A DNA stretch of 64,000 bases from positions 11,178,001 through 11,242,000 of the forward strand of contig JAZBRS010000037.1 in assembly GCA_037176725.1 (NCBI GenBank), in the 5' to 3' direction. Positions 1,946-43,389 of this stretch are shown here, in pieces. The notes under the pieces were generated by a model. That model did not search any database and had not been told where the DNA came from. It saw only the letters and a list, made by a program, of their open reading frames with translations. The translations under genes were made by a program, and so were the position numbers. The stretch is from Posidonia oceanica (Eukaryota; Streptophyta; Magnoliopsida; Alismatales; Posidoniaceae). How positions within the stretch are numbered: the first letter of the stretch is position 1; each line of letters starts with the position of its first letter.

Positions 1946-3422
1946 CCGAAAGCGGCCCCGTTGCAGATGCCCTTCTCCCACTTGCATTCTCACCTCTTGC
2001 AACCTCTATTTCAAATCATCATCGTCATCCTTTCAACTCTTGCAACCTCTATTTCAAATCATCATCGTCATCCTTTCAACTCTTGCATCCTCTCTCTCCA
2101 AAATCATCATTGTCATCCTCCCAAGCATTGTATCTTTGGCTCGGTGATGAAAACCGGAAGTGCTTGCCTGCTCTGGAAAGAATCGTCCTACCTCACCTGG
2201 CACTACTCAGACGTCTTAGCTAGTGAGGGAGCCACCACCAACGAGGACAGGTGAACTGCCTAATTTCGCAAGGACATACACCTCTGAGGGAGAAAAAATG
2301 TTAGGATGTGAGTCTGGAAAAAGCGAGAGTAGACACCTAGGTTTGGGCACATCCAAGGAACAGAAGACGAAGACAGAAGCCGGCCCTAGAGATAGGGGTG
2401 TGCAGTCTAACCCTGCTCCTTCTACCCATCACACAACAGACCCAAAACCTAAGTCCATTACATTTCAAGCACCCTTCTTTTGCCACCAAAATGGGGATAA
2501 GCAAAAGCCTAAAAAAAAAAAGGGGAGAAAAGCAAAACAACAAGCAAAAAAAGAAAAGGGATAGAACAAAAACCAAAAAAAAAAGAAGAAAAAAAAAAGC
2601 AAGCAAAGCAAAAAACAAAAAAAAAGAGGCAAAATGTAGCCCGAAAAACACAGGCACCGCTATCCCCTATGCCTCACTAGAGATCCCCAGCATGTCAAGC
2701 CTAAAAGGGTCTACCACATCCCTTCAAGAGCGAACACTCACCCTTCTCCTGGCTAGGGGCAGAGAAAGACTGCATACCTATGAGGGAGAAATCAATCAAA
2801 AAAGAGAGCTGAAAGAATAGGTGTAGGTCCTGAGAGTCTGGCCAACAGCCTGTCCTCACCACACCACCACCTGCATAATGCCAACAACCCGTTCCGGAGA
2901 GCCACCAGCAAGCCAGGAGTCTAGGTAGGGCCCAGTGAGTCAGGGACCACTCCCTTCCCTTGCAGCAGGCACCAAAGCACTCCGTATGCTGAGGGCACCT
3001 AAGCATACTCATCCATCCAAGCATACTACTCACCTTCATAAGCATATCACTTGCATCCTACATACGAGCATCCTCTTTCATTCCTTTCCCCTTCCATCAA
3101 TCTCTCCGCTCTGCAACACGCTCAGGCCCTGAGGCAGTACTTCTCCCCAGCAGAGCGCATTGACGACACTCAAGCTGCGCCGGTCCAGATCTCCTGCCGG
3201 CCCTCGCCCCCGCATTCGCCAGACTACTGCCAATTCCCTTTGCTTATTTGTGCTTAATTGCTATGTTCTGTTATCAACTGCTGAATGCATATGGAACTAT
3301 TTTATCAGCCTCAGTTTCTGTTTATTGTCAAAGAATATACGCCTGCGAGATCTGACTGTTTATTGATAGCAGGTACTTTCAAGCTTCTACAGCTATCTGC
3401 CTGTCCCTCTGTAATCAGCGTA
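1946..3422 (+). other. post-pol spacer
   Basis: Non-coding stretch between pol and the extra ORF. It contains a 43-bp direct repeat (2000-2128) and an extremely A-rich tract (about 2508-2635). The A- and G-rich tract gives open frames on both strands, but they are compositional. The extra-ORF frame stays open upstream to 3285, so an earlier start is possible. No promoter or splice acceptor could be assigned with confidence. Confidence 0.6.
2000..2128 (+). repeat. 43-bp tandem repeat, 3 copies
   Basis: The block beginning CAACCTCTATTTCAAATCAT recurs at 2000, 2043 and 2086; the third copy is diverged. It lies just after the pol stop codon. Confidence 0.8.
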
Positions 3423-4601
3423 ATGGGCTTTCCTACTCTGCTAACTCCTGCACACTGCTCAGAAGCCCTGCGAGAATGGATCAGCAAGCTCACTCTACAA
3501 GACTGTGAACAGCTGCGCCTGTGGGGCATACCAACTAAGCTGCTGAAGGCTGCTGATGTGGAGGTCAGCCGCCACCTTCTGTGTGCCGCCGCAAGATTCT
3601 GGAAGCCGGCGCATCATGTCTTCCGTTTCAACAAGACTGAGCTGACACCTACACTGGAAGAGGTGCGTCAGATCTGCGGCTTTTCAAAGATCCTAGGGCC
3701 GCCTATTTTCATGAGGCACGACGGATACCTCCAGGTCCTGAGCCAGCTAACTGGGCTCCCCACTCAAACCTGTCAACAGAAACTAATCTGCACCAGTGGG
3801 CCTGAACCTATGCTTCGCCTCGCGCACTTCGATGATATCATAAACAAGCGCGCAGAACTCGGAGATGAGCTGTGGCTCCGAGGATTTGTTGTCCGCTTCC
3901 TAGGCGAACTGATCTTTACCCATGGCCGATTGACAGTGGCCATTGAGGTTGCAGAAATTGCATTAGCAGTGGTGACCCAGCACATAGACCTGGCACCAGT
4001 TGTCCTGGCAGAGACCTATCGCGGGCTGGACCGCATCTCTCATCGCTGCCGCCACTTCCACGGTTGCGGAGCACTCATACAAGTCTGGCTGACCGCGCAC
4101 TTAGAAACGAACCTCTTGCGCCCTCAAGTGCATGCCTTTGAAGCCTACTGCAGTAGCGCCCGTGCCAAGACAGAAAAGAGCGTCAAAGAAGAATACGAGA
4201 GGCTGTCAGCACTGACTGACGACACTATAACCTGGCGTATTGTCCCCTCTGCAGCAGAGCCATTCACTATCTTCTTCAGCGCGCGTGACATGCGGCTGAT
4301 CATCCTTCCAGGTTTCACAGCAGGCGTAGAGTACCATCCAATCAGGGTCATGCGCCAGTTCGGCTTCCAGCAGGGCGCCTTCATTGACAGTACAGCGCCC
4401 TACCTTCTACAGATGTACCCTCTCAGCACAACTGCCCCGACCAAGAAGCTTGCTAGTCTGATGCAGCATGGGGTCCAATCTACAGACATTGCAGCTGTGA
4501 GAGGTATACAATGCACCCCTGAGTATGAAGCTGAAGTCCGACAACTCTGGCCTATCACTGAAATTCCGCCAGGCGGCCCTTTGTTTCCCGACTCCCGGTA
4601 G
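3423..4601 (+). CDS. extra ORF with plant mobile domain
   Basis: An uninterrupted 392-residue ORF. The N-terminal half resembles the plant mobile domain (aminotransferase-like domain; related to the DUF7745 group), with pattern positions such as LRLWGIPTKLL, a following FWKPAHHVFRF and ELTPTLEEVRQICGF. A later AETYRGLDRISHR and HGCGALIQVW segment fits the same family. The domain is known from MAIN/MAIL proteins and from ORFs carried by gypsy and Mutator-like elements; its biochemical role is unclear. It lies downstream of pol on the same strand, in the position of an env-like ORF, but has no signal peptide or membrane segment. ATG 3423 was chosen because family similarity begins soon after it; ATG 3285 is in frame. 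It is the only intact long frame in the retroelements here. Confidence 0.72.
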   Translation: MGFPTLLTPAHCSEALREWISKLTLQDCEQLRLWGIPTKLLKAADVEVSRHLLCAAARFWKPAHHVFRFNKTELTPTLEEVRQICGFSKILGPPIFMRHDGYLQVLSQLTGLPTQTCQQKLICTSGPEPMLRLAHFDDIINKRAELGDELWLRGFVVRFLGELIFTHGRLTVAIEVAEIALAVVTQHIDLAPVVLAETYRGLDRISHRCRHFHGCGALIQVWLTAHLETNLLRPQVHAFEAYCSSARAKTEKSVKEEYERLSALTDDTITWRIVPSAAEPFTIFFSARDMRLIILPGFTAGVEYHPIRVMRQFGFQQGAFIDSTAPYLLQMYPLSTTAPTKKLASLMQHGVQSTDIAAVRGIQCTPEYEAEVRQLWPITEIPPGGPLFPDSR

Positions 4602-4924: not shown

Positions 4925-5815
4925 GATCATCATCCTCCTCAGCTGATCATCCCCAGCTGAGTCCCCAGCCCAAACTGCTCGGCGAAAGGTCCGTCAACCT
5001 GTCATCCTCCTCAGCTGATCATCCTCAGCTGAGTCCCTAACAGGCTGGCACCCCAAACTGCTCGGCGAAAGGTCCGTCAACCTGTCATCCTCCTCAGCTG
5101 ATCATCCTCAGCTGAGTCCCTAGCGGGCTGGCACCCCAAACTGCTCGGCGAAAGGTCCGTCAACCTGTCATCCTCCTCAGCTGATCATCCTCAGCTGAGT
5201 CCCTAGCAGGCTGGCACCCTAAACTGCTCGGCGAAAGGTCCGTCAACCTGTCATCCTCCTCAGCTGATCATCCTCAGCTGAGTCCCTAGCGGGCTGGCAC
5301 CCCAAACTGCTCGGCGAAAGGTCCGTCAACCTGTCATCCTCCTCAGCTGATCATCCTCAGTTGAGTCCCTAGCAGGCTGGCACCCCAAACTGCTCGGCGA
5401 AAGGTCCGTCAACCTGTCATCCTCCTCAGCTGATCATCCTCAGCTGAGTCCCTAGCGGGCTGGCACCCCAAACTGCTCGGCGAAAGGTCCGTCAACCTGT
5501 CATCCTCCTCAGCTGATCATCCTCAGCTGAGTCCCTAGCGGGCTGGCACCCCAAACTGCTCGGCGAAAGGTCCGTCAACTTGTCATCCTCCTCAACTGAT
5601 CATCCCCAGCTGAGTCCCCAGCGGGCTGGCACCCCAAACTGCTCGGCGAAAGGTCCGTCAACCTGTCATCCTCCTCAGCTGATCATCCTCAGCTGAGTCC
5701 CTAGCGGGCTGGCACCCCAAACTGCTCGGCGAAAGGTCCGTCAACCTGTCATCCTCCTCAGCTGATCATCCCTAGCTGAGTCCCCAGCGGGATGGTACCC
5801 CAAAACTACTCGTCT
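4925..5815 (+). repeat. 83-bp minisatellite, 10 copies
   Basis: The core CTCGGCGAAAGGTCCGTCAA recurs every 83 bp from about 4978 to 5725, ten times, with few substitutions. Each unit also holds CAGCTGATCATCC..CAGCTGAG and GGGCTGGCACCCC, both partly self-complementary. The last unit decays into AAACTACTCGTCTGAC. Related wording (CTGCTCGGCGATAAGTCCGTC) recurs in the element at 30190-32870, so this is an expanded family-specific block. Confidence 0.92.
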
Positions 5816-5975: not shown

Positions 5976-6175
5976 TCTTCTCATCATTACCTCATCCCCT
6001 CTTTGCCGGCCGATAAGTCCGATATCTTATCAATCAATCATTCTCATCATTACCTCATCCCCTCTTTGCCGGCCGATAAGTCCGATATCTTATCAATCAA
6101 TCATTCTCATCATTACCTCATCTCCTCTTTGCCGGCCGATAAGTCCGATATCTTATCAATCAATCAATTCTCATC
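5976..6175 (+). repeat. 63-bp tandem repeat, 3 copies
   Basis: TCATCATTACCTCATC recurs at 5981, 6044 and 6107. Each unit also contains GCCGGCCGATAAGTCCGATA followed by TCTTATC, giving a GATAAG/CTTATC hairpin. Confidence 0.88.
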
Positions 6176-6400
6176 ATGATCTCATCCCCCTCTTTAGCAG
6201 TAGTTCTCATCATGATCTCATCCCCCTCTTTAGCAGTAATTCTCATCATGATCTCATCCCCCTCTTTAGCAATAGTTCTCATCATGATCTCATCCCCCTC
6301 TTTAGCAATAGTTCTCATCATGATCTCATCCCCCTCTTTAGCAGTAATTCTCATCATGATCTCATCCCCCTCTTTAGCAATAGCTCTCATCATGATCTCG
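6174..6400 (+). repeat. 36-bp tandem repeat, 6 copies
   Basis: TCTCATCATGATCTCATCCC plus CCTCTTTAGCARTARY repeats every 36 bp. Because 36 is divisible by three, both strands show repetitive open frames; these are not genes. Confidence 0.9.
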
Positions 6401-7320
6401 TCCCCTCTAACAATCAATCACATGCTAGGCTGATATCCGAAACTATCAAACAATCAATCACATGCTAGGCTGATATCCGAAACTATCAAACAATCAAGCA
6501 CTCTCAGGCTGATAACCTAAACTATCATCTGGGCCGATCCATGGTTGGCCCACAGTTGTGTTATACGGCTGACATCCAGTAACTGTCCCTTGCAATTGCG
6601 GTTTCCAGTTGATAGGTTTGTAAACTATCCTCCAGTTGATAGGTCTGTAAACTATCCACCAGTTGATAGGACTGTAAACTATCGCTAGGCTGATATCCTA
6701 AACTATCACCAGCAATTGCATTATATGGCTGATATCCAGTAACTATCCCTCATCATTGCGCGTTTCCAGTTGATAGGTCTGTAAACTATCCGCCAGTTGA
6801 TAGGTCTGTAAACTATCCGCCAGTTGATAGGTCTGTAAACTATCCACCAGTTGATAGGACTGTAAACTATCACACGCAATCATGTTATACGGCTGACATC
6901 CAGTAACTGTCCCTCGCAATGCCGTTTCCAGTTGATAGGACTGTAAACTATCCTCCAGTTGATAGGTCTGTAAACTATCCGCCGGTTGATAGGACCGTAA
7001 ACTGTCGCTCCAGTTGATAGACTGTAAACTATCCGGCATTTGCGTTATACGGCTGATATCCAGTAACTATCACTCATGGTTTGTGGCTTCCAGTTGATAG
7101 GTCTGTAAACTATCCGCCAGTTGATAGGTCTGTAAACTATCCGCCAGTTGATAGGACTGTAAACTATCCCACACAACCATGTTATACGGCTGATATCCAG
7201 TAACTATCACTCACAACTGCTTCCGGTTGACAGGACCGTAAACTGTCATTCCAGGCTGATAACCTAAACTATCACTCCCGGTTGATAGGACCATAAACTA
7301 TCCGGACGATAAGCCCGTCA
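6401..7320 (+). repeat. 27-bp hairpin minisatellite
   Basis: Many units of the type CAGTTGATAGGTCTGTAAAC-TATCCGC, 27 bp each, alternate with longer units containing TACGGCTGATATCCAGTAAC-TATC. In each unit GATAG can pair with CTATC. Unit order is irregular, as if blocks were duplicated together. Confidence 0.85.
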
Positions 7321-10800: not shown

Positions 10801-12057
10801 TCAGATCAGGCTCCCGGATTTCCAGGTATGTCCCCTTAAACCCCTGCATTGCATTCATTTGCATGCCATTTGCATAATTTTCCTCGTTTTCGATTTCTGT
10901 CTCTTTGAGCATATAGAATAGGGCCTCCTCTTCTTGTCTATCAAACTCAGATCTCCATTTCGCGTTTCTCTATGTGTTTTGTGTTGAGTTTTCCCTGGAT
11001 TTACCACTTAATGTGACTTTCTTCCCCCTTTTCCACGATCCGATCGCATCGCGAGCTTTGGGTAGCATGCGAGACGCACCGTGGAACGGTTTAGTGGGAA
11101 ATGGTCGCAAAAGAGGTGGTAATCCCTCCGTTTGCTCACTCTCCCCTTTGTAGGTCTTCACACCTACTCTGTGTGGCCCTGAACAGTGCCTGTTCTCACA
11201 CATGCGCTGTTCTGCTTCTCCTTTTTCTGCTTCTCATCTTTTCTTTGCATTTGCATTCGCACTGCTTTTCCGAGGTTTTATCTCGCAGCTTTTGGCACCG
11301 TTTTGCGTGCCCGTTCTCGTTTTGGCACCGTTTTGCGTGCCTACCTTGTCTTTTTGCACCGTTTTGCGCGTTTTCTTGTTTTTCGCCTCGTTTTGCGTGT
11401 TTTACTCCGTTTTCTCTTGCATGTCGATTGCATTGCATGGTTTTACCGTTGTTTTGCTTTTTCGCCTGCATTTACATATAGGGCTGTGATGCTTACTGCC
11501 TGGAGTTCTCACGAGCTAGGTTTCGCCTGATTCGGAACACAGACAGCGTAGCTGAGCATTTAGAAAGCACGTTTACTTTCCTTGCTTTGCCTCTTCCCAC
11601 TTAGAGCACACCTTGAGCATTCATTTAGGCATTTATAGGCACATAGGCATCCAATCCTGCATTTCCCTGCGTATGCGAGCGTAAGCCTAGAAAGACCGAT
11701 TTTCGGGCGTGTCGGGGGTGCCTAACACCTTCCCCGCACGTAACGGGAGTCCTTGCCCTGTCTTTTGGCCCGCAATGACCGTACTGCCCTTATCCTAGGC
11801 TAGAGTCATCTCATTTGCATGTATTTGCATTTGTTTCTTTTGCATTGCTTTGCTTTGCATTTCTTGCTTGGTTTTGCGTGTTAATTCACGCATTTCCCCC
11901 GATTTTCCTTGTCTCCCGTTAATAGACATGGTGGCGACTCTGATTTGTCTTATCTTTCTCTTTTCTCCTCGATTTCAAGTGTTTTCGAGTCGAGCCCCTT
12001 CCTCGGATCCAATCGCCGCTAAGGATAGCGAGCCTGATTCCGATCGGGATCGCTACA
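7876..12057 (+). repeat. 3' LTR A (4182 bp)
   Basis: Starts TGTTGACACCCC after the polypurine tract and ends GATCGCTACA. Order inside: CCCTAA-rich start, A-rich block (8600-9330), CT-rich block (9370-9600), T-rich and GCATTT words, a CGTTTTGCGTGCC repeat (about 11300-11410), the conserved box GGTGCCTAACACCTTCCCC (about 11717), and TGGCGACTC at 11932. It aligns by eye with the 5867 bp solo LTR at 21193 but lacks about 1.5 kb found there at about 23600-25060. A CAG|GTATGTCC splice-donor-like site is at 10826. Confidence 0.88.
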
Positions 12058-15022: not shown

Positions 15023-16350
15023 TACAAGGTTTGCTTTTTTTTTTTCTCTCTCTTTTTTTTTTCTTTGCTTTTCTTTTCTCTTTTTTTTTGCTTTTGCTTT
15101 TCTCTCCTTTTTTTTCAAACTATTACAGAGGATTAAGAAGGAGATTACAGACTGGATTAATACTACTTAATACAGACTTGATTAAATGGAAGTGAAAATA
15201 TCAGTAAGTAGCTGCTGCTCTGATGTTTCTGCAACCTATTAATGGAGATAAACAAATCCCTGCAAACAAGGCACACTGAACGGAGCGTTTCCCTGTAGTC
15301 GCCTGTGTGACAGGTGGCCAAACAAGTCGTCGGTTTATCAGGCGGCTGAGAGAGGCACCTTCTGAACAGGCAGCTATGCCTCTTGTTCAGTCAGCAAACC
15401 GGGTCTATCTTGGATAGACCACACAACAGTCAGGAAAGAAAAGGATACAAGTTGCAGGCAGATCGCTGTTTTTACTGTTTAGGTGGTTAGTTAGTTAATT
15501 AATTAGTTAAACCTGTGTGTTTATACTGAATGGGATTTGTTGGCTTATAGGTACTCCTCCTTGACCTTCCTTAGGGTCCACCAAGAGGGGCCTAAGTGGG
15601 GGGCTTGTCTCTCTAAAGAGGGACCCTCCACCTAGGATTCTGTCCTTAGGCTCGGCACTTAACAAACCATAAAGCGATAAAACACAGAGTACTAAGGTGT
15701 AAAGTATCTACCAAGTCCCACTATTGGCTCAGAGAGAGAGAGAAGCCAATAACGATACTTGGGACACCTTGAGATCTTGATCTAACTATTGCAGCTAAAA
15801 CTGAGTATGGGAGAGCGACTTGCACTGGCCCGGGTTCGCTCAGATTAACTGTTCTAGCTAGAGGAAGACTTCCTCAAGGGACTTCCACTTTAATACCAAA
15901 CAATTAGTTTCCACCTTAAGGATGGACACAAGCAAAGCTAGAAATCATTAAAAAACTAGAAGACAGTGGACATGGAAATTTTGTTTTTAATTTTTAGTGT
16001 TACTGTAGATCTAAAAACACAACACAAAGTACAGGAAAAAACTAAGAAGTCTGCAGTAAAAAACCAGACTGATGGAGGCGCCTGTATAAGCGATGTCTAT
16101 ATCAGTCGCCCACTGGAGAAGCAGCTCATACAGACACTACTAGGACCGACGGCTCGCAACATAGTATCCTAACTTCAGTAAAATAACCCCAGCTGCTGGA
16201 GCTTAGGATTTTACTGACGTCAGAAACAGACGGAGGATAAAAACAGAAAAGGTTCGGGATATCGTGAAAATCTAAGCGCACGATTATCCGAACCTAAAAA
16301 CTACTCCTAAGTCTATGAGGATAATGGAAAGAAGGGGAGGAATCAACTCA
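15023..16350 (-). other. 5' leader of element F, hairpin-rich
   Basis: Non-coding; a pyrimidine run at 15033-15115 lies next to the gag start. Several short perfect hairpins are visible: CTGAACA-GGCA..TGCC-TCT-TGTTCAG (15362-15390), GGTCTATC-TTG-GATAGACC (15402-15420), and nested GTCCCA/TGGGAC around TATTGGCT/AGCCAATA (15715-15765). A GTCGCC-N9 half-module is near 15298 and related words near 16075-16125. I could not identify the primer-binding site; candidates lie near 16345-16400. Confidence 0.5.
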
Positions 16351-17152: not shown

Positions 17153-17411
17153 GTCACCGGTTGGACAGGCGCCTAAACCTAGCAACTGCTTGGTCAAAGT
17201 GTGGGAAGACCCGGGAACGAGGCCACGATAGTTAGTCGCCGATTTAGGTGGCGCCTAACAGTTGGGGTGATCGTGTGAAATAACCGTGGAAAAAAGGTTC
17301 GAAGAAGACCACGATTGTTAGTCACCTCATGTAATGGCGCCTAATGGTCAAGAATCATGGGGGAGACCGAGGCAGTTCCACAACCGTCTAGTCGCCTGGT
17401 GTGGTGGCGCC
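17153..17411 (+). repeat. dispersed GTCRCC-N9-GGCGCC hairpin modules
   Basis: Four 21-nt modules at 17153, 17235, 17321 and 17391: six-base arm, nine variable bases, six-base arm. Left arms are GTCACC or GTCGCC and all right arms are GGCGCC. CTAA follows each right arm. Confidence 0.8.
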
Positions 17412-17478
17412 TAAAGGTTGAGGGGTTAGTGGGAATTGACCATGGAAAAGCAACTGCCAGAGCGGTTATGACTTGTTA

Positions 17479-17638
17479 GTCGCTTCTTTGGATGACGTCT
17501 AACATAGTCACCTAATAATGGGGCGCCTATACGGGTCACCTCCCCAATTGGCTACAAATAGCTCGCCTTTTGGATGGACGTCCGTCTTATTCGCCTCTTT
17601 AAATGGCGCCTATGGTGGTCGCCTCCTCAATTGGCAAC
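17479..17638 (+). repeat. 28-nt periodic array of six 21-nt hairpin modules
   Basis: Modules begin at 17479, 17507, 17535, 17562, 17590 and 17618, so 21-nt modules are separated by 7 nt (once 6). Each is a GTCGCC-like arm, nine variable bases, then an arm such as GGCGCC, GACGTC or GGCAAC. Loops and spacers differ while spacing is kept. The same module occurs in the LTRs at 19808, 34012, 35400, 41586, 43114 and 43390. Confidence 0.85.
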
Positions 17639-17934: not shown

Positions 17935-19592
17935 GTGCCTCAGAAGTCCCTGTCCTCTATGAACTCTGGGAAATGCGAAAATGGGATATCTACAATGAAC
18001 ACCCGACTCCGGAGAAGGGGAGGTAACCACACTAGCAAGGTACCCCACACAACCCCGAGCCAAAGACTTGTAAGCCTTCACAGCAGAAATCACAAGCTTA
18101 GGCTCACCTTGGCGCACACCTTGCACAAAGAAGGAACCAGCCTCAGCAGCACCAAAGAAAATCCTCCTACGAGCACAGTCGATCAAAGCAGAATATTGGC
18201 TCAGCCAGTCCATGCCCAAGATAACATCATACTCATTCATACCCATGAAATGAGAGTGGCATCAAACTCTCGGCCATTCAGCTCCAGATCGACAGAAGGC
18301 AGATATCTCCACGCCAAACTATGCTCACCCAGCGGCGTTACCACCTCCAAGTGGAAAGCTAACCTGGCTGGTACATCATCTAGCTCCACCGCAAAAGACT
18401 CAGAGACAAAAGAGAAAGTGCTCCCTGAGTCAAACAGAACTTTGGCCGTTCGGCCCGCCACAAGATAAGAACCTAAGGCCAAAGCACAACCAACAGCATC
18501 CCCATTAAACAACACGGTTCATATTACAGGGGGAAAGAAACAACTACAACAACAACACAACAACAACCGCAATGGGTCACACCACCCAAAGGAAACTACG
18601 GGGACTTACCCTCCACAACATTACTAGAGGGCCCACAGTCGGGAGCTGAAATAGTAAACACACGCCCTCGAGTCGGCTACTGTGGCACATTCCCCACTCG
18701 CTTGGGAGGATCCAGGCACATCCTCTACACATGTCCCGATCTCCCACAGTTGTAGCACACTACTCCGCTCCGATTCGTCACCTGTTGTGCTCAAGGGCAG
18801 TGCGCGGCAAAGTGACCCACCTGGCCACACTGGAAACACTGGGCGCTTCCCTGTCCACTCGAAGCAGCCTGACTCGGACCGATGCTACCAACTCCTACAA
18901 AGCTGTGTCGGGCGCTGGAGGCAGGGCCAACACCACCACCACCCCGAGCAAAACTACGCCGGGCACCAGAACCATTGCCAGATCTGTCCTTCTTTCTCTT
19001 CCCTAGGCTACTCATGCCACTGGAACTCGGTGGACTAGAGACAGAAAACCGGGAAGTGAAGGGCAACTTGACCACTCACATACTGGTTATACTCCTCTTC
19101 AAAGCGGGAAGCCATCTAGACAACCTTAGCTACCGTCACACAGCGGCAGCCCATCACCTTCACCCTCAAGCTAGGTTGAAGGCCTTCCAGAAATCTCTCC
19201 GCCCGCCTTTCCTCAGAATCAAAGGCCTGGGCGAACCTCTCCAACCAGGCAAAAGAGGTTTCATACTCAGCCACAGACATCCTGCCCTGTTGCAGACTCC
19301 GGAACTCTCGGTCGAATCAGCTCCTCACATGGCTCGGAAAGTACTTCTCATGGAATGCAGCCTCGAAGTCCTTCCACTTGATGTTGACCGTTATAGAATC
19401 TGGGAACTTCAGCCGCCTGGTGGCTCTCCACCACTCATCGGCATCGCCGTCAAGTTGAAAGGCAGCCAACCGCACCCAGTGCTCCTCTGGGCACGCCAAA
19501 CTATCCAACAACTTCTCAATCCTTCGTAGCCATGCCTCGCTCTCCTCAGGAGTACCAATACCCTTGAATGTCGGCGGGTGGAGCTTACTCAA
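17935..19592 (-). pseudogene. gag-protease fragment of chromovirus-like Ty3/gypsy element
   Basis: Reads leftward from 19592. First is a gag domain (HPPTFKGIGTPEESEAWL, DADEWWRATRR, WKDFEAAFHEKYFPSHVR), then, after TGA, a second gag part (QQGRMSVAEYETSFAWLERF) near 19250. A CCHC knuckle CFQCGQVGHFAAHC lies near 18805 in another frame, and an aspartic protease with FDSGSTFSF near 18420. The conserved GMNEYDVILGMDWLSQYSA near 18200 is frameshifted relative to the protease core at about 18240. Similarity stops near 17935, before reverse transcriptase. The right end abuts a truncated LTR at 19594. The gag type fits chromoviruses rather than Tat elements. It is clearly dead. Confidence 0.87.
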
Positions 19593-19593
19593 T

Positions 19594-20535
19594 TAGCGGC
19601 AACTAGCCTGGCATTCTGAGCAGTCTCCGTGCCGACTTTGCGCCGATGTATCTCCCTGTCCGGGCATCCATTTTACTTTCCGTTTGCATGGATTTGATCT
19701 CTGTTATGCCCTCCGTGTTGCCATGCATTTGGTTTCTTATTTTGATTAGATTAGCTAGCTTTTCTGAGGCCATGAAGTTGCCTGTCTGGGAAAATGCACA
19801 AGGTCCAGTCACCACTCTCGCCGGTGACATGTGCTGTCGCCATTCTAGCTGGCGACGTGCCTCGTCGCCCTGAGCACCGGCGACTGCTCCTGGCATCCAG
19901 ACAGTAGCCTTAATCCTCTGCTTGTTGCTTTGGTTTTCATCCATTTAGCATATTTGACCCTATTTTCCTAATTCCTTCATCATTGCATCATGGCATCTTA
20001 GCCCTAATCATCCATGTTTAGCATGTTTTCCACTAAGCATAGCATGTTTTCAAATGGCATTTAGGCAAGCAAAGCACACATTAGGCATACATAGCATTAT
20101 CGCCTATGGGCGTACAGTTAAAGGCAAGCATTTATTGAAATTCCCGCATATGCAAGCGATTAGCCTTAAAAGACCGATTCCTCAGGCATGTCGAGGGTGC
20201 CTAACACCTTCCCCACATGTAACAGGAGTCCTTACCCTTTCTTTGGCCCACAATGACCATTATGCCCTTATCGTAGGCACGAGTCATTTTCTTTTGCATA
20301 GCATCGCATCCACTTGCATGTTTTTAATGCATCTCCCTGATTTTCCTCGTCTCCCGACTTAATAGACTAGGTGGCGACTCCGATTTTGCTTTATCTTTTA
20401 TTTCTCTTGTCGTTTTCGATGTTTTCGAGTCAAGTTTCCTTCCTCGGATCCACCCGCTCATAGCGACCTCTCGTCGGTCGGTGCACACGAGCTTTGGCAG
20501 TGTGCATGGACGTGCCGACACCCAGGATCGCTACA
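19594..20535 (+). repeat. 5'-truncated LTR of element E
   Basis: Matches the 3' LTR from 35186 onward (TAGCGGCRACTAGCCTGGC) and ends GGATCGCTACA. It contains three hairpin modules (19808-19884), the conserved box GGTGCCTAACACCTTCCCC (about 20194), and TGGCGACTCC at 20372. The left border is an abrupt join to the minus-strand gypsy fragment, as expected of a deletion. Confidence 0.85.
19808..19884 (+). repeat. three 21-nt hairpin modules, 28-nt period
   Basis: GTCACC-N9-GGTGAC (19808), GTCGCC-N9-GGCGAC (19836) and GTCGCC-N9-GGCGAC (19864). The first has both arms changed together relative to the others. The copy in the 3' LTR (35400-35476) shows the same layout with some arms mismatched. Confidence 0.88.
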
Positions 20536-24100: not shown

Positions 24101-27059
24101 TTCCCTCTGCTGCTATTCTGCCCATCAGAAGCCAGTTCCCAATCTTCCAGCGCCGTCCTCGACTCGCCGGACAGAGTGTCTTCTCCGGCGCCGGCCTCCT
24201 GTCCTCCCGATGCTCCGGACGACGGAACGATGCCCCGACGGACTCCGGAGCTCCGCACAGACATCAGCTCCAACCTCCGCCGAACCGCGCTTCCACAAGC
24301 TCCCTGTGCAGGCGGTGCTGAGCTCCGGTGGCATCTTGCTACAGTGCCAGCCGCCGCCGGCAGAACACTGTTTATTTATTTTTCTAGTTATATAGTTTCG
24401 GTGTTAATATTGCATATCTGTCTTAAGTTTTTTTAGTTTTGCGTTTCAGTCCTTGTTTCATTTAATATGCTTAGTTTTTAATTAAAAACCTTGCTAAATT
24501 GCTTAATGTGTTCATGCTTTCTTGTATTTGCCTTCTGGTCCTGTCACTGTGCCTTTTAGTTATAAAAAGTTTAAGTTTAGCCCCTCTGCTTTCATTTATT
24601 GCACATAGGTCCTGCATGAAATCAGATCATTTAAGTGCATCATTTTTACCATATAATATTGCAGTCTGAGTCCCGGTAATTTACCGTTTTTGCATGTAGA
24701 TCCGTTGCACTGTAGCAACTTAGGTTTTAATTTTAATTTTTGGTTGATGCATTGCACTTTTGCCCTTCTGGTTTTGCATTTTTGCAGTTAGGTCCATTTT
24801 AAATGGACAGTAACTGTGTTACATATAATTTAGCTTATTAAATTGCATTTTCAACCCTGCATTTTTTAAAAATTACACTATGGTCCTGTCCTTTATTTTT
24901 CAGTGCATGTTTTCCATACTAAATTGCATTTTCAGCCCCTGCATGATTTCAAAATTACACATAGGTCCCTGCACCTTTTAAAAAATCATGTGAAAAGACC
25001 ATTTTGCCCCTAGGTTGCATTTTAGCTCCAATGCTTACCAGATCTCATACAGACCCTCCACTAGTATTCCCAGACTCCCTGGAACCTTGTTTTCTGGAAA
25101 ATTTGCATTTTAGACCCTAGTTTTCTTAAAATTACTTTCTGATCCATTTCTGCTTTTAAAACTTCTTCCAAAGCATACCCTCTTTTTGAAACAGCCTTCT
25201 GAGCCTAGTTTTCTACAAAACGAAGCCCTGCTTTCTCCTGTTTTCAAAAACCCTTTCCCTTGGACCCCTGTTTTTTGAGAAATTTGCATTTTTAGCCCCT
25301 TTCTTTTTCAAAATGCTTTCTGAAATCCTAGTCTTTCCCAGTTTCTTTTCTTTGCTGCTTCTTGCTTTCGCATGCATCCTGCACTCATCTAGTCTTGCAT
25401 TTCAGCATCCTTTTGCACACACTAAGCATTTTTAGCTCCCTTTCACTTGGGAGGACCTTTTGCACATCCCTAGGATCTCCTGAACACCTAGATCTGTTCT
25501 TCTCCCCTGTTCTGGCCCTTCTGCCTTTGAAGTCGCGATATCTTTCAATCCGGCCGTTGGATCTTCTCAAATAAGCTGCTCAGGCGACCGCAGCGAAGCG
25601 CTCTTCAGCATGGACCAGACAGATTTCAGATCAGGCTCCCGGATCTCCAGGTATGTCCTCCTGAACCCCTGCATTGCATTCATTTGCATGCCATTTGCAC
25701 AGTTTTCCTTGTTTTCGCTTTCTGTCTCTTTGAGCATGTAGAATAGGACTTCCCCTTTCTGCTTGTATCTCCCAATCTCCGTTTCGCGTATTCCTGTGTG
25801 TTTTGCGTTGTGTTCTCCCTGGATTTGCCACTTTATGTGACTTTCTTCCCCCTTTTCCACGATCCGATCGCATCGCGAGCTTTGGGCAGCATGCGAGACA
25901 CACCGTGGAACGGTTTAGTGGGAAACAGTCGCAAAGAGGTGGTAATCCCTCCGTTTGCACGCTCTCCCCTCCGTAGGTCTTCACACCTACTCTGAGTGGT
26001 CCTAAACGACGTCTGTTCTTACACACACGTTGTTTGACTCCCCTTTGGCCCCTCCTAATCTTTTCCTGCATTCTTGCATTCGCGTGGTTTTTCCGAGGTT
26101 TTTGCTTCGCTGTTTTGGCACTGTCCCGCGTGCCCGCCCTTGTTTTGGCACCGTTTTGCATGCCCGTCTGTTTTCTTGTCTCGTTTTGCGCACTGCCTTG
26201 CTTTCTCGCTCGTTTTGCGTGCCGGTTTTATTCTTTCGCTCCGTTTTGCGTGCCATTCTGTTTTCTCGTCCCGTTTTGCGTGCCTTCCTGCTCTCTTGTC
26301 TTGTTTTGTGCGCTGCCTTGCTTTCTCACTTGTTTTGTGCACCGTTTTCGTTCTTTTGCATCGTTTTGCGTGCGTTGCTCATCTCTCGTCTCGTTTTGCG
26401 TGTTTTGTGCCGTTTTCCCTTGCATGACGATCGCATTGCATGGTTTTCTCGCTGTTTTGTTTTCTCGCTTGCATTTGCATATAGGGCTGTGATGCTTACT
26501 GCCTGGAGTTCTCACGAGCCAGGTTTCGCCTTGTTCGGAACACAGACAGCGCAGCTGAGCACTTAGAAAGCACGTTTATTTCCTTGCTTTGTTTCTTCCC
26601 ACTTAGAGCACACCTTGAGCATTCATTCAGGCATTTATAGGCACATAGGCATTCAATCCTGCATTTTTCTGCGTATGCGAGCGTAAGCCTAGAAAGACCG
26701 ATTTTCGGGCGTGTCGGGGGTGCCTAATACCTTCCCCACACGTAACAGGAGTCCTTACCCTGTCTTTTGGCCCGCAATGGCCGTACTGCCCTTATCCTAG
26801 GCTAGAGTCATCTCATTTGCATTTGTTTGCATTTGTTTTCCTTTGCATTGCTTTGCTTTGCATTTCTTGCTCGGTTTTGCGTGTTAATCCACGCATTACC
26901 TCGATTTTCCTCGTCTTCCGTTAATAGACGTGGTGGCGACTCTGATTTGTCTTATCTTTCCTTTTTCTCCTCGATTTCAAGTGTTTTCGAGTTGAGCCTC
27001 TTCCTCGGATCTCAATCGCCGCTATATTAGCGAGCCTGGTTCCGATCGGGATCGCTACA
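21193..27059 (+). repeat. solo LTR B (5867 bp) with 5-bp duplication
   Basis: Runs from TGTTGACACCCC to GATCGCTACA and is flanked by GCATA at 21188-21192 and 27060-27064. With no primer-binding site or polypurine tract next to it, it is a solo LTR left by recombination. Inside, in order: CCCTAA-rich start, A-rich block (21900-22660), CT/GC-rich block (22690-24360), T-rich block with GCATTTT..CCCTGC words (24370-25350), splice-donor-like CAG|GTATGTCC at 25651, a CGTTTTGCGTGCC repeat of about 30 bp (26110-26440), the conserved box near 26719, and TGGCGACTC at 26934. Confidence 0.93.
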
Positions 27060-30190: not shown

Positions 30191-30395
30191 ATCTGCACCG
30201 GGCTGGCAGCCCTAACTGCTCGGCGATAAGTCCGTCAACTTGTCATTTGGGCTGGCAGCCCTAACGGCTCGGTTGACGCTCGTCAAAATGTCCATCCGGG
30301 CTGATAGCCCTAACTATCCGATGATGGGTCCGTCAACTCATCACCGGGCTGGCAGCCCAAACTACTCGGCGATAGGTCCGTCAACTTATCATCTT
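30191..30395 (+). repeat. hairpin repeat block 1 of element E
   Basis: About four units of the kind GGGCTGGCAGCCC (self-complementary) plus TAACTGCTCGGC plus GATAAGTCCGTCAAC-TTGTC. Arms vary between units (GATGGGT with ACTCATC, GATAGGT with ACTTATC), always leaving Watson-Crick or G-U pairs. Confidence 0.82.
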
Positions 30396-31830
30396 GCACA
30401 TATCTACCATTTCCTGCACATATCTATCACTTCTTGCATGCATATCCCCTCCTGCATGCACATATCGTTTCCTGCATTTTGGAAAACACAAAAAAAAAAC
30501 CAAAAAAATCAAGAAAATCAGAAACAACAAAAACATCCTTTCCCTTTCCGCTGGTTTTGATTTTATGTTTTTCTAAAAAAGCAAAAACTATAAAAATCAC
30601 AAAACCTACAAAGCCCAAAAACATGTGTAAAATCTACAAAACACATAAAAATTTGCATAATCCAAAAACCCAGCCTTAGACAACAAGCAGCGCCGAGATG
30701 ATGTCAAGCATCGACCATCTCAGGCAGAACTCACTCAAGCAGCGCCCTCTCTTTGCATGTGGCCACAGTGTGAAACTTAGAGCAGATCAAAGCATCTCGC
30801 TGAGTTCGAAACTCCCAGAAGCGAGATCCACCCTATCAAGAGAGTCCACCAGACATGGAGAGGACCAAAGCAGAGTAGAGCATAGCCAGAGACTGCTTGT
30901 ACACATTGCAGAGGCTGAGGGCGTATGCCGACCAGTCGAACTCTTAATGCCTCATCAGGGACCGCTACCCCAAGAGAGCGAAGACATGCATATCCAAAAG
31001 AATAGAGATCATGTGAGAAAAAAATATGATAACAAGATATGCATGCTGGGAATAAAAGAAAATGAAAACAGAAGTTGAAGAAAGAAGGCGCCCATGAGAG
31101 GAGTGACTCGGACAAGCATCGAAGCCCCCTCAACTCTCAACTCCAAGCACCACACTGTCAACTGCACGGGAAACATTATCAGGAGGACCTGGCCCCACCC
31201 TCCGAGCGCAGCAGCACGCTCCAATCCCTTGTGCAGACAACAACCCTACATCCCTGGCAGGCTAAATGCAACTCCAGTCACTCGTGGGGGGAAAAGAAAA
31301 ATCAATCTGTGAGCATCAAAAGCGGTAGTCGGTCCCTGAGGAGTTAAGACAGAGGCTATGAAGCTACATCCAACGCTTTTGCTACCCACATGTAGCCAAA
31401 GGCTATACTTTGCAAAGCTAAGGCCTCATCCTGAACTAAGAGTGAGAATGAGAGCCACCAACCACAACTCAACATGGCATTGCTCGAGAATCGAGATCTC
31501 CTGAGTCAGGAAGTGCAAAAGCATCCTCTCGCCAAACAGCTGCTTTGATTCCTAAGCCACCAAAAACACACATGGATAATAACCCATCTTCCCCTTCTTC
31601 TGTTTTCGAAAATCGGAGTTAAGGACGAGCACTTTTTGCCCGACCTCGCTTAAGGCTCCGCACTTTTCAAATTTTTCCGCCCACTGCATTGGGTAGGTCC
31701 TTGATGACCGGCATGTCCCTTGTTTCCCACCCTGTGGCATTGCATCACATGCCCATGCTGAGACCATTGCACACCCACCACGATGGGTTCCCGTTTTCTC
31801 CTTGCATCATCCTGTATTTTCCCTGTATCC
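30396..31830 (+). other. unassigned internal region of element E
   Basis: Contains four CATATCTA/CATATC words (30410-30470), an A-rich tract (30480-30670), and about 1.1 kb of ordinary composition (30690-31800) without a protein I recognise. This is where pol would be expected; I see no trace of it. Confidence 0.5.
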
Positions 31831-32155
31831 CGGGCTAGCAACCCTAACTGCTCGGCGATAGGTCCGTTAACTTATCATCTTGTATTCATCCTCTGCATTG
31901 GACTGGCAGCCCTAACTGCTCAACTGACACCCGTCAAAACGTCATCCCGCATCTTCGCGTTGCATCGGGCTGGCAGCCCTAACTACTCGGCGATAAGTCC
32001 GTCAACTTATCACCCCAGGCTGGCAGCCCTAACTACTTGGCGATAAGTCCGTCAACTTATCATCTGGGATGATAGCCCCAACTATCCAGCGATAGGTCCG
32101 TCAACTTATCATCATCCATCCTTTCTTATTTCGATGCCAGGGGTGCTTCGACTGT

Positions 32156-32183
32156 CCTCTGGTATCATTCCTGATACCAGGGG
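32156..32183 (+). other. PPT-like hairpin, copy E1
   Basis: CCTCTGGTATCA pairs with TGATACCAGGGG (11 of 12) across loop TTCC; CATC follows. Confidence 0.7.
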
Positions 32184-32443
32184 CATCTTTTTTGCTGCCC
32201 TCTGGTATCACCCCTCATCTCACTGGGCTGGTAGTCCTAACTGCTCGGCGATAGGTTCGTCAACTTATCACCCTGCATTCTCCTTTGCATTATCCCATTG
32301 CATTCCCCACCGGCATTGCACATCGCACGGTGAGCCTCTACATCCATTTCATTGCATCGGGCTGGTACCCCTAACTACTCGACTGGCAAACTTGTTAGTT
32401 TTGTCTCCACTTTGCATTTCGATGCCAAGCACGCTTCGACTAT

Positions 32444-32472
32444 CCTCTGGTATCGTTCACCGATACCAGGGG
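32444..32472 (+). other. PPT-like hairpin, copy E2
   Basis: CCTCTGGTATCG pairs with CGATACCAGGGG (11 of 12) across loop TTCAC; CATC follows. The A/T pair at the loop end of copy E1 is G/C here. Confidence 0.72.
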
Positions 32473-32972
32473 CATCTTTATTTGGCTGTCCTCTAGTATC
32501 ACATTTCCATCTGCATCCGGGCTGACATCCCTAACTGTTATAGGAGCGTCTACGGACCTCTGCCACACCTTCGAGTATGGTATTCCCTCTGCATTCGTGG
32601 TTACAAGTCATCCCACTTGTGATCACCTTTCTTGCCTAACAGACTCGCTGGCCTGTCACCATCCACCAGGCTGATAGCCCTAACTATTCGGTGATGAGTC
32701 CGTTAACTCCTTACAGGGCTAATAGCCCTAACTATCTGGCGATGAGTCCGTCAACTCCTCATCGGATTGATAGCCCTAACTATCCGGTGATGAGTCCATC
32801 AACTCCTCACAGGGCCGATAACCCCTAACTATCCGGTGATAGGTCCGTTAACTTATCACCCTTCGTCGTAGTGTAATAGCATTCTATTGCATATCATGGC
32901 ATTTCATTGCATGTCATCATGTAGCTTTCTTGTATCCCCCGTAAAGTCTGTCCCAATTTGCATCTCATCATT

Positions 32973-33755: not shown

Positions 33756-33816
33756 GTCTACCCTGAGCAGCGGCCTCGGTCCCCTTGACCTCGCTCAGGG
33801 AGGGGCATTTGTAGAC
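33756..33816 (+). promoter_or_regulatory. polypurine tract in a conserved hairpin (copy E)
   Basis: GTCTAC (33756-33761) pairs with GTAGAC (33811-33816), and CCTGAGC (33762-33768) with GCTCAGG (33793-33799). The 24-nt loop and 11-nt bulge are identical in length to the junction at 7822. The GTCTAC/GTAGAC arm replaces GTCAAC/GTTGAC by one compensated base pair. Confidence 0.75.
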
Positions 33817-34011
33817 ACCCCAATTTGACTGCCATTTGGCAGATTTCACTCAGGGATCGAGCTCAAAAGCCTAAAACCCCACTTTTCACCAAAACCCCAT
33901 CCAAACCCTAAAACTTGACCAAAACCCCAACATTTCTCCCCCAACACAGACCTAGGCCCATTAGAAACCCACTAGGCCCATTTAGAAACCCAATTGAGAC
34001 AGGAGGGTCCA

Positions 34012-34092
34012 GTCACCAATCACACAGGCGACTAGACCGTGTTGTCGCCACTCGCAAAGGCGACTCAGTCTGTCGCCACTCGCAGCAACAAC
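34012..34092 (+). repeat. 21-nt hairpin modules in LTR D, 5' cluster
   Basis: GTCACC-N9-GGCGAC (34012), GTCGCC-N9-GGCGAC (34044) and GTCGCC-N9 with a decayed right arm (34072). A further decayed copy starts at 34100. Confidence 0.8.
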
Positions 34093-35399
34093 TGGTCTTG
34101 TCGCCTACAAATGCGACAACTCACCTGTTCAAGCTTTCTCCCGTGCAGACTGCCACCTCCCACGACCTGCTACCACGTCGTTCGCCCATTGTCGTGCACG
34201 CCATGCCTGTCAGATCCCACGCCTGCCACCCACTCACGTGCACGCCATGCCCTGCCACCATCCTCCTTGGGCAGAGCGCCGAGCAAAACCACAACCCAAC
34301 TCTCAGACTCTCGCCATGGGGGGAGAGCTCACTTCCTCACACATTTCGGCCGGCCATTTCCCTTGCTTCCAGAGCGACCCAGAGCCAAAAAACACCTTCT
34401 GAGCGATCCCCGAGCATCCCCGGACGCCGACATAAACTCCAACAAGCCTCTCGAGCCTCCGAGCATCCTTCACACCGTCATCTTCCCCAACTTTGGCGAG
34501 TCACCCGGATGCTGGCAGCGGCCTCTTCTCACCCGTCCGGTGCTGCATTCTCCTTCCTCGCACACCAGGAAGCACCTCCGGACATCCCCGAGCACATTCC
34601 AACACCGCCGAGCAACCGCCGCTTCCTCCAACGATGCTGCGACCTCCGCGCCTTCCAATTCCCGCGAGCCACGTCGAGAGTCACGTCCGTGCTCCCGCAC
34701 AGGTACGAAACTACTCCCTTCCCCTCCTAGGACTTCCCTCTAGCTCTCTTGGCCTCCTCCGAGCGCCTTAGTGGCGTCTCGCGGCCTGTCGGCCTCCCCA
34801 AGGCCGGCCAACGCGATCGTCGCTAGCGAGAAGAGGAGCGAGGTGGTTAGAGTGATCCGCTAACCCATTTTAAATTCTGAATGCATGTCTGTGTTCGTGG
34901 GAATGTCGTGAAGCTTCCCTGATCGTCATCGGTCTCTTTCACGCCGCCGTTGGTGCGGACTTTGGCGTCAAAGTCCAACCTTTGGACTGTCACCGGTCGG
35001 AGTTTGGGCCACCGTATCTCGCGCCCAGGCGGTCGTTTTGCTTAATATCTATATGCATGTGTTCGTGGATGTATGGTGTTTAATTTCCAACATTTAGTTT
35101 CCTGTCTTGCATGGCCATCGGCAGGAGATTTGGCTCCAAAGTTCGCCGTGCGAACTGCCTATGCTGCCAGCTACGACACCGCTTGTAGCGGCGACTAGCC
35201 TGGCATTCTGGGCAGTCTCCATGCCGACTTTGCGCCGGTGTTTCTCCCTGTTCGGGCATCCATTTTACTTTCCGTTTGCATGGATTTGATCTCTGTTATG
35301 CCCTCCATGTTGCCATGCATTTGGTTTCTTATTTTGATTAGATTAGCTAGCCTTTCTGAGGCCATTAAGTTGCCTGTCTGGGAACATGCACAAGGTCCA

Positions 35400-35476
35400 A
35401 TCGCCACTCTCACCGGTGACATGTGCTATCGCCATTCTAGCTGGTGACGTGCCTCATCGCCCTGAGCACCGGCGAC
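35400..35476 (+). repeat. 21-nt hairpin modules in LTR D, 3' cluster
   Basis: Three modules at 35400, 35428 and 35456 with 7-nt spacers, left arms ATCGCC and right arms GGTGAC, GGTGAC and GGCGAC. They correspond one to one with 19808-19884. One more module is at 35175-35195. Confidence 0.83.
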
Positions 35477-36131
35477 TGCTCTTGGCATCCAGACAGTAGC
35501 CTTAATCCTCTGCTTGTTGCTTTGGTTTTCATCCATTTAGCATATTTGACCCTGTTTTAATTTCCTAATTCCTTCATCATTGCATCATGGCATCTCAACC
35601 CTAATCATCCATGTTTAGCATGTTTTCCACTAAGCATAGCATGTTTTCAAATAGCATTTAGGCAAGCAAAGCATACATTAGGCATGCATAGCATTATCGC
35701 CTATGGACGTACAGTTAAAGGCAAGCATTTGCCGAAATTCCCGCATATGCGAGCGATTAGCCTTGAAAGACCGATTCCTCGGGCGTGTCAAGGGTGCCTA
35801 ACACCCTCCCCGCACGTAACAGGAGTCCTTACCCTTTCCTTGGCCCGCAATGACCATTATGCCCTTATCCTAGGCACGAGTCATTTTATTTTGCATAGCA
35901 TCGCATCCACTTGCATGTTTTCTATGCATCTCCCCGGTTTCCTCATCTCCCGACTTAATAGACTTGGTGGCGACTCCAATTTTGCTTTATCTTTTATTTC
36001 TCTTGTCGTTTTCGGTGTTTACGAGTCGAATTTCCTTCCTCGGATCCACCCACTCATAGCGACCTCTCATCGGTCAGTGCATGCGAGCTTTGGCAACGTG
36101 CATGGACATGCCGACACTCAGGATCGCTACA

Positions 36132-36560
36132 CTTATCACCTTCTTTTTCCCTTTGCGGTCGATGAGTCTGAAACTCTTCCTTCCGGTCGATAAGTCTGAA
36201 ACTTATCACTTTTTCTTTTCCTTTGCGGTCAATGAGTCTGAAACTCATGCTTCCGATCGATAAGTCCAAAACTTATCACCTTCTTTTTTCCTTTGCGGTC
36301 GATGAGTCCGAAACTCATCCTTTCGGTCGATAAGTTCGAAACTTATCACTTTTTTCCTCCCTTTGCGATCGATGGGTCCAAAACTCATCCTTTCTGGTCG
36401 ATAAGTCCGAAACTTATCACTTTTCTTTTGCTTTCCCAGTCGATAAGTCCGAAACTTATCACTCTTTTCTTCCCCTTGCGGTCGATAGGTCCGAAACCTA
36501 TCATTTATCACATTGTGCCCCTTCCGATCGATAAGTCCGAAACTTGCCAATTATCATCCT
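36132..36560 (+). repeat. GATAAGT hairpin array with compensated arms
   Basis: About a dozen 19-nt palindromic units spaced by T/C-rich sequence and GCGGTC or CGGTC: GATAAGTCTGAAACTTATC (36189), GATGAGTCCGAAACTCATC (36301), GATAAGTTCGAAACTTATC (36329) and GATAGGTCCGAAACCTATC (36484). Three different perfect 7-bp arm pairs occur, and others keep pairing through G-U. Open frames here are by-products. Confidence 0.88.
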
Positions 36561-37517: not shown

Positions 37518-37578
37518 GTCTACCCTGAGCCACGGTCTCGCTACACTTGACCTCGCTCAGGGAGGGGCATCTGTAGAC
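37518..37578 (+). promoter_or_regulatory. polypurine tract in a conserved hairpin (copy H)
   Basis: GTCTAC (37518-37523) pairs with GTAGAC (37573-37578), and CCTGAGC (37524-37530) with GCTCAGG (37555-37561). The loop is 24 nt and the bulge 11 nt, as in the other two junctions, although the loop sequence has diverged. Confidence 0.75.
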
Positions 37579-37828
37579 ACCCCATTTTGACAGACTTTTA
37601 GTTGGAGGATCTCTGGAGGCTTGCTCAGATTGTGGCATAGCGAATCCTATTCCAAACCCTACCCAGATCCAACCCAAAACCTTGACCTAGACCTTATATC
37701 ACTTAAACCTCCTTTACACTTAAACCTCACTCAAACACCACCAAAACCAACCCAAAACTTTCAAATCACCCAAAACCTAACACCACAACCCTCACAAAAC
37801 CCAAAACCCATTGGTGGTTCAAGGACAA

Positions 37829-40800: not shown

Positions 40801-41526
40801 TTTTCGCATCGTTTTGCGTGTTTGCCTCAGTTTCCCTTTGCATGTCACCTGCATTGCCTGCTTTTACCGCTATTTTGTTTTATCGCCTGCATCTACATTT
40901 AGGGCAGTGATGCTTACTGCCTGGAGTTCTCACAGACTAGGGTTCGCCTAGTTCGGAACACAGATAGCGTTGCTGAGCGCTTAGATTGCACGTTTAATTC
41001 CTTACACGCATTTCATCACTTAGAGCACACATTTGAGCATCCAATTAGGCATTCATGGCACTTGGGCATTCAAAGCATGCATTTCCCTGCGTATGTGAGC
41101 GTAAGCCTAGAAAGACCGATTCTCGGGCGTGTCGGGGGTGCCTAACACCTTCCCCGCACGTAATAGGAGTCCTTGCCCTTTCTCATGGCCCGCAATGACC
41201 ATATTGCCCTTATCCTAGGCACGAGTCACATCATTTGCATCCCATTGCATCTCATTTCATTTGCATTGCATCACATTGCATCTTTTGCTTGGTTTTGCGT
41301 GTTTATTCACGTATTTCCCCGGTTTTCCTTATCTCCTGACTTAATAGACACAATGGCGACTCTGATTTGTCTTATCTTCTTCTTTTCTTTCCTTTTTCCC
41401 TTTTTTAAGTGTTTTCGAGTCAAGTCTTCCTTCTCGGATACACCCGCTAATAGTGAACCTAATTCCGATCGGTGCACGCGAGCTTTGGCAACGTACATGG
41501 ACGATCTGAACACCGGGATTACTACA
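37829..41526 (+). repeat. solo LTR I (3698 bp)
   Basis: Starts TGTTGACACCC and ends GGGATTACTACA. Flanks are GACAA (37824-37828) and AACAA (41527-41531), a 4/5 match that fits a target duplication with one transition. Order inside: telomere-like CCCTAAA words (37868-37915), A-rich (37900-38440), CT-rich (38440-39120), GC-rich (39121-39620), T-rich, 30-bp repeats (40300-40660), the conserved box near 41134, and TGGCGACTC at 41354. Its first bases resemble those of LTR C at 51723 (minus). Confidence 0.85.
40300..40660 (+). repeat. about 30-bp GCATATAGGTCCCTA repeats
   Basis: About eleven units of TTGCATNYAGGTCCCTRNNTTT. Diverged forms extend upstream to about 39720, and in solo LTRs B (24590-25350) and C (47590-48440, reverse). 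Each unit has a CAG|GTC- or TAG|GTC-like junction. Confidence 0.82.
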
Positions 41527-41585
41527 AACAAGGAAGTGGGCCTGGATTTCACTATACAGGCCTAGTCCACTGGGTTACAAGCTCT

Positions 41586-41663
41586 GTCGCCACTTTCAGC
41601 GGCGACTAAACTCTGTCGCCACTCTAAGCGGCAACTTGGTTTGGCGCCACTAGGAGCGGCGAC
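41586..41663 (+). repeat. 21-nt hairpin modules in LTR G, first cluster
   Basis: GTCGCC-N9-GGCGAC (41586), GTCGCC-N9-GGCAAC (41615) and GGCGCC-N9-GGCGAC (41643); spacers are 8 and 7 nt. Loops begin ACT and end AGC, extending partial pairing inward. Confidence 0.87.
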
Positions 41664-43113: not shown

Positions 43114-43190
43114 GTCGCCTGAGAGAATGGCGACTTGCTCCAGCGCCACTCACAGTGGCGACTTGGTTAGTTGCTGCTCTCAGTGGCGAC
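43114..43190 (+). repeat. 21-nt hairpin modules in LTR G, second cluster
   Basis: GTCGCC-N9-GGCGAC (43114), AGCGCC-N9-GGCGAC (43142) and GTTGCT-N9-GGCGAC (43170), exactly 28 nt apart. Single modules at 42690 and 42887 have the same 6-9-6 layout. Confidence 0.87.
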
Positions 43191-43389
43191 CAATGTTGCA
43201 GTCCAGGCAGTGGACAGAACCACTAGCTTGCCGCCTTCTCACCTTATTTGTTCGACTTGTTTTATTACTGGTTCTAATCTTAGATATGCTATATCTGGTT
43301 CCCATGTTTTAGTTTTCTATTTTGTATGGTTTTTTTTAGCCTTTTTATGGCAATGATTGTCACTGTTTGGAAGTAGGGTATGTGCCTCT

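Follow-up and report, generated by a model that had tools for sequence, protein, structure and literature searches.

The 21-nt dyad GTCGCC-N9-GGCGAC (class A module), which forms arrays with a 28-nt step in LTRs, is probably a DNA site bound by a protein dimer, and arrays of such sites in U3 would activate the promoter of the element that carries them. This reading is drawn from sequence. Each module would act as a double-stranded site for a putative dimer, with one subunit per GTCGCC half and nine free base pairs between the halves, and the 28-nt arrays in U3 would form an upstream activating element for the retrotransposon promoter. The putative reader may be a host protein or one borne by the element. 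We infer protein binding, dimerisation and raised transcription at the arrays, whose most likely role is promoter activation, anti-silencing being the main alternative. A transcription-factor platform was among the guesses of an earlier sequence-only reading of this DNA and is the one that fits best, because of the position in U3, the near-fixed distance to the TATA box, the two independent half-sites and the single exact gap.

In the window (the whole stretch of 64,000 nt that was analysed), six modules were found, as had been claimed, at 17479, 17507, 17535, 17562, 17590 and 17618, with steps of 28, 28, 27, 28 and 28 nt and, in order of start, 3, 2, 2, 3, 2 and 1 mismatches to GTCGCC-N9-GGCGAC. 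Across the 64 kb, class A modules with at most two mismatches numbered 31, of which one, at 39468, looks stray; 200 local first-order Markov surrogates gave a mean of 1.05 and a maximum of 5. The spacing also held up against surrogates, a check named in the sequence-only reading: pairs exactly 28 nt apart occurred 11 times in the window and 0 times in the surrogates. Across five related LTRs, identity was 79% in the arms, 40% in the loops and 64% in the other columns, the columns having been classed from one sequence alone. The loops are less alike than their surroundings, which speaks against one recent tandem duplication. Module number varies between related LTRs; the pair L022-L004 was left out of this comparison and of that of arms and loops.

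The array that contains these six modules extends over 17153-17638 by module scan and lies, as had been noted, in an LTR, though on the minus strand, an orientation that had to be corrected. In the element's sense direction, the order is the LTR start TGTAGATATCCC (17983-17994, starting at 17994), the U3 array (17638-17153), TATAAA (17088-17083), 85 nt from the start of the last module, and, downstream of the LTR on the same strand, an ORF with a Retrotrans_gag domain (PF03732; 14614-13505). Two more class A modules, 28 nt apart, are present on the minus strand at 15298-15346, about 2.65 kb into the LTR. The other LTRs concerned are on the plus strand. One, truncated at its 5' end, contains three class A modules with 28-nt steps (19808-19884). 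Another, preceded by a polypurine tract and starting with TGTAGACACCCC, spans 33810-36131 (3' limit approximate), with a first array at 34012-34120 (module offsets 202, 234, 262 and 290) and a second cluster at 35175-35476 (35175; 35400, 35428, 35456). The modules at 41586-43438 also lie in an LTR as described, corrected here to a single split LTR at 37572-44062 (3' limit approximate), interrupted by the insertion of another LTR about 3.7 kb long (37829 to about 41526). The first array of the split LTR (41586-41663) has an offset of about 316 when the insert is not counted, compared with 306 in the uninterrupted relative L002, and its inner clusters (42690-43438) start at 42690, 42887, 43114/43142/43170 and 43390/43418. 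These LTRs had been described as three unrelated-looking ones; they form two groups instead, since 19594-20535 is 93% identical to 35186-36131, the 3' part of the LTR starting at 33810, and 35685-36114 matches 43612-44045 at 70%. Two further observations concern the split LTR. Its inner clusters recur at 197, 227 and 276 nt, a second level of spacing that is also seen with class B (see below), and the LTR inserted into it is flanked by GACAA and AACAA, likely a 5-nt target duplication with one base different.

Exact copies of GTCGCC-N9-GGCGAC numbered 37,261 in the 2.96-Gb genome, against 29 for the backwards control. When the gap between the same arms was allowed to vary from 3 to 15, 38,558 places were found, and 37,261 of these (96.6%) had the gap of 9; the twelve other gaps share the remaining 1,297, which is below the 3,667 of the backwards control of the gap-3-15 pattern. 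The pattern GGCGAC-N(2-14)-GTCGCC matched 18,789 places (control, 3,347). Among the first 50 matches listed, the spacer was 7 nt in 35, which amounts to the 28-nt step between modules, and 11 nt in 6; among the 44 distinct strings in those 50, it was 7 nt in 30. The distance between neighbours for 109 class A modules in the sequence sampled peaked at 28 nt (23 cases), with 32 nt and 102 nt next (4 each). Nineteen stretches of 10 kb, chosen by position alone, contained 30 class A modules (at most two mismatches), compared with 1-7 in five shuffles.

The LTR starts in the window and the loci read TGTAGAYAYCCC or close to it, several of them right behind a polypurine tract (...GGGAGGGGCATC). Out of 23 LTR starts with a module within 4.5 kb, we judged 11 to be class-A-array LTRs, the other 12 being class B LTRs, the split LTR, redundant overlapping sequences or starts with far-off matches. 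Nine of the 11 had their first class A module (at most two mismatches) at a distance of 200-360 nt from the LTR start, the exceptions being L023 (491) and L003 (783). In the first LTR group (the TGTAGATATCCC type), the start of the last module and TATAWA were separated by 84, 84, 85, 85, 86, 86, 86, 96 and 98 nt, and the cluster lay upstream of the TATA box in 9/9 arrays (L001, L003, L004, L006, L012, L022, L023 twice and the window). These arrays are related copies and thus not nine independent cases; L004 and L022 also have another, nearer TATAWA, 25 nt after the start of the last module. No TATAWA was present in the LTR sequence examined for the second group (five LTR starts), and the link to the promoter therefore comes from one group of related LTRs. 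Clusters of modules also sit 1-3 kb into the LTR, where they may be downstream of the transcription start. In several LTRs that start with TGTTGACACCCC, the slot at 200-360 nt from the start was free of dyads. The ORFs over the slot (33915-34730 and others) were rejected as genes and taken as chance, because substitutions in five LTR pairs showed no three-base rhythm. For monocot LTRs, the available part of PMC4029996 describes stretches rich in CpG immediately before the TATA box.

The pol domains of L006 are arranged as G-patch, RT, RNase H, RVT_3 and integrase, which is the Ty3/gypsy order. In this locus, pol is followed by an array-carrying LTR start at 3613 and by a second LTR start at 283; the latter has a polypurine tract before it and shares 95% identity with the LTR at 3613 across 285 nt. 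It is likely that this pol belongs to the array-bearing LTR family. RVT_3, a second RNase H of the archaeal type, lies between RNase H and integrase in this one element, which we take to indicate the Tat lineage. As judged from the sequence of one element, L006, the class A carriers with a readable pol are one family, Ty3/gypsy and Tat-like; this assignment concerns the pol of the first LTR group. Among the matches listed, 120 RT relatives were 51-59% identical, and the named ones came from many flowering plants; one identifier was presumably that of Ginkgo. An ORF with a plant mobile domain (PF10536, DUF7745) is present on the plus strand of the window at 3285-4601, downstream of an RVT_3/integrase ORF. 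We rejected it as an accessory gene, since the LTR type that follows it (start 7876) lacks dyads at the slot position.

A second dyad, GGACGC-N11-GCGTCC (class B), occurs in 140,221 exact copies in the genome (control, 10) and shares with class A the core geometry GWCGC-N11-GCGWC. The position-chosen 10-kb stretches contained 63 class B modules against 1-6 in the shuffles. Its step is 29 nt, found in 29 of the 32 spacings up to 130 nt once overlapping loci were dropped, and its offsets were 219-286 in six LTR starts (L012, L017 three times, L029 and L032). The offsets of class A were 201-292 in four LTR starts (L001, L024, L025 and the one at 33810 in the window) and about 306-316 in L002 and the split LTR. 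When nucleotides 13-190 of five second-group class A LTRs were compared with those of five class B LTRs (60 single-base shuffles per pair), z ranged from 1.4 to 14.2 and exceeded 3 in 21 of the 25 pairs, values that shared base composition may have raised. The first class A group resembled neither the second-group class A LTRs nor the class B LTRs (z at most 3.6). Weakly similar LTRs can therefore carry either A or B and LTRs of no detectable similarity share A, so that within the reach of these tests the type of dyad does not track LTR ancestry. For the same reason, we are inclined to posit one family of trans-acting factors, common to these LTRs, in which the preference for half-sites would have changed.

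Class B was found in L017, L012, L010, L008, L001 and L029-L032, in groups of two or three copies spaced by 29 nt; within the LTRs of L012 and L017, such groups return every 200-260 nt or so. The window has a sole exact class B core (GACGC-N11-GCGTC), at 45618-45638. Another dyad, GCCGC-N10-GCGGC (class C), occurs with 28-nt steps in the slot of L010 (8524-8629) and perhaps of L027 (near 5680-5800). Its standing as a third dyad is weak, the loops in L010 being near identical.

The sequence-only reading had also proposed a structured RNA. The modules would in that case be hairpins in the element's transcript, serving in packaging or as a source of small RNA, a use reported for the palindromes of maize Sireviruses in the accessible part of PMC10760457. 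The 6-nt arms are indeed complementary, and the 160-nt array folded as RNA is stabler than shuffles (z -3.8), yet it adopts one long-range fold and not six hairpins. The class A loops did not pair beyond shuffles (sum over three pairs, P = 0.61, 92 distinct loops); their left and right halves have preferences in common (T at position 9) but do not pair. Nor did the loops of an asymmetric form, GGCGCC-N9-GGCGAC, pair beyond shuffles (P = 0.075, 73 loops). For the outermost loop pair of class B, pairing was 0.51 against 0.35 in shuffles (76 loops), a value inflated by related copies, and the class C array has longer stems; both would fit a hairpin. Compensated arm changes were not in excess, either in class A (8 against 11.3 expected, 171 modules, P 0.90) or in class B (8 against 5.6 expected, 115 modules, P 0.18); these counts excluded modules of the other class and allowed a total of up to 3 mismatches. 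An initial excess (A: 119, expected 70; B: 129, expected 66) arose because modules of the two classes were counted in each other's list, and it vanished once the classes were separated. L029, L030 and L032, which overlap L001 or L031, were dropped from these tests and from the core-symmetry and class C counts. There was no G.U bias: pair-keeping and pair-breaking CpG transitions on the sense strand numbered 27 and 23 in class A and 9 and 11 in class B, counted on modules with up to 3 mismatches, some of them due to chance, and with L029 and L032 kept for class B LTR starts. The asymmetric form, in which pair 2-20 is broken (G opposite A), occurs at 37,994 places in the genome (controls, 15 and 6) and is as common as the paired one. 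Similarly, the core GxCGC-N11-GCGyC in the sequence sampled was asymmetric (G/T) in 13 cases and symmetric (G/G) in none. Rfam gave 0 matches in the window at gathering scores. An RNA stem, too, would lead A and B to differ symmetrically, and this counts against the dimer reading. Hairpins appear quite unlikely overall, and the balance of these sequence tests favours double-stranded DNA sites for a protein dimer, because the arms are conserved and the loops free, pairing is not in excess and the half-mismatched version is equally common. As a separate observation, the loop of the asymmetric module favours A at 7, 12 and 13, an oriented preference such as would be expected if its halves were read differently.

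The arrays could instead be an element-specific address for an anti-silencing protein that removes methylation, and would then not activate directly; this is how VANC proteins and their tandem motifs act in the VANDAL elements of Arabidopsis, which are DNA transposons. The half-sites are CpG-rich and the arrays are located in non-coding parts. Weakly similar LTRs carry different motifs, as do VANDAL21 and VANDAL6 in what is available of PMC5735166 and PMC10398659, and accessory ORFs of Retand are predicted to bind DNA (PMC11963269, in part). Yet L006 has no ORF of at least 130 aa after integrase, and class A occurs in LTRs of no detectable similarity, so that the address would not be element-specific. 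We consider this explanation unlikely, if less so than RNA hairpins. A functionless by-product of tandem duplication or of another mutational process would account for the variable number of modules in related LTRs and for the near identical class C loops of L010. It would hardly account for arms that were retained while loops diverged, for a gap of 9 maintained genome-wide or for one dyad being shared by LTRs between which no similarity was detected, and we regard it as very improbable. A palindromic signal for integration or recombination, the latter being the third guess of the sequence-only reading, seems slightly less probable still. Frequent insertion at palindromes has been reported for LTR elements of plants (PMC6911290, in the part available), whereas the modules here are near-fixed within the LTR relative to its start and to the TATA box, and the one nested insertion examined (37829) falls outside any module.

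The sequence-only reading had stated that this is not a known element motif, which holds in part. Palindromic repeats upstream of the TATA box are in fact known from LTRs of Sireviruses, which belong to Ty1/copia (PMC2829016, in part). For the variant described here, the GTCGCC-N9-GGCGAC dyad, we found no report in the open-licence literature. The available text of PMC2829016 describes these repeated motifs (RMs) as having a CGG-CCG core in 12 of 13 published elements. Like the dyads, RMs are palindromic, contain CpG, are present in several copies per LTR and are near-identical in distant elements. RMs also lie upstream of the TATA box, as did the arrays of the first LTR group; the second group had no TATAWA in the LTR sequence examined. 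Going by the same partial source, RMs differ in having a CGG-CCG core with mostly a short gap or none, as opposed to GTCGCC/GGCGAC with a free 9-nt gap, and in residing in copia elements, as opposed to a Ty3/gypsy carrier family (L006); the 28-nt step, the tens of thousands of copies in one genome and the sister dyad in the slot also set the present dyads apart. What is new compared with the Sirevirus kind is the Ty3/gypsy carrier, the free fixed gap, the strict step, the sharing across dissimilar LTRs and the sister dyad. As far as PMC5735166 is available, the target motifs of VANC in VANDAL elements resemble the dyads in being short non-coding repeats that differ between related elements; here, likewise, the slot of weakly similar LTRs contains class A in some and class B in others. 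VANC motifs are non-palindromic and 8-9 nt long, and their TE-encoded binder has been shown, whereas here the binder is putative. Retand, in the available part of PMC11963269, is likewise Ty3/gypsy, with long non-coding parts containing repeats; its arrays are located between pol and the 3' LTR and not in U3, and no spaced dyad is reported in that part.

A bolder version of the dimer-site reading, which we put forward only tentatively and as doubtful, is that the U3 slot 200-360 nt into the LTR is a plug-in address code. Exchangeable dyads of one geometry (GNCGC-N10/11-GCGNC, 28-29-nt step) would each have their own dimeric reader, element-borne or host, and the readers would form a diversifying family of DNA-binding proteins. 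If this were true, a switch of address code would change which elements are activated or desilenced together, and LTR retrotransposons would have a counterpart of the VANC system on a scale exceeding 200,000 sites. One exact spaced dyad found tens of thousands of times, its loops free and its step fixed, would amount to a natural saturation experiment for a single DNA-binding specificity. A testable binder is predicted from the array. As weakly similar LTRs carry either dyad A or dyad B at this position, one could test directly how transposon control sites and their reader co-evolve.

Other repeats were also seen. Tandem arrays are present at 36131-36544 of the window, with similar units at 5978-7302 and 30198-32853, and inside their units is a different palindrome, whose two arms show matching changes (GATAAGTCCGAAACTTATC next to GATGAGTCCGAAACTCATC). 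Repeated units resembling GGCACGCAAAACGGTGCC, for the most part close to 30 nt, form arrays at 46523-46787, 26151-26402, 11289-11403 and 40692-40814 of the window, in LTRs whose slot contains neither class A nor class B. Finally, L007 (1-10000) is satellite throughout, with a period of about 71 nt.
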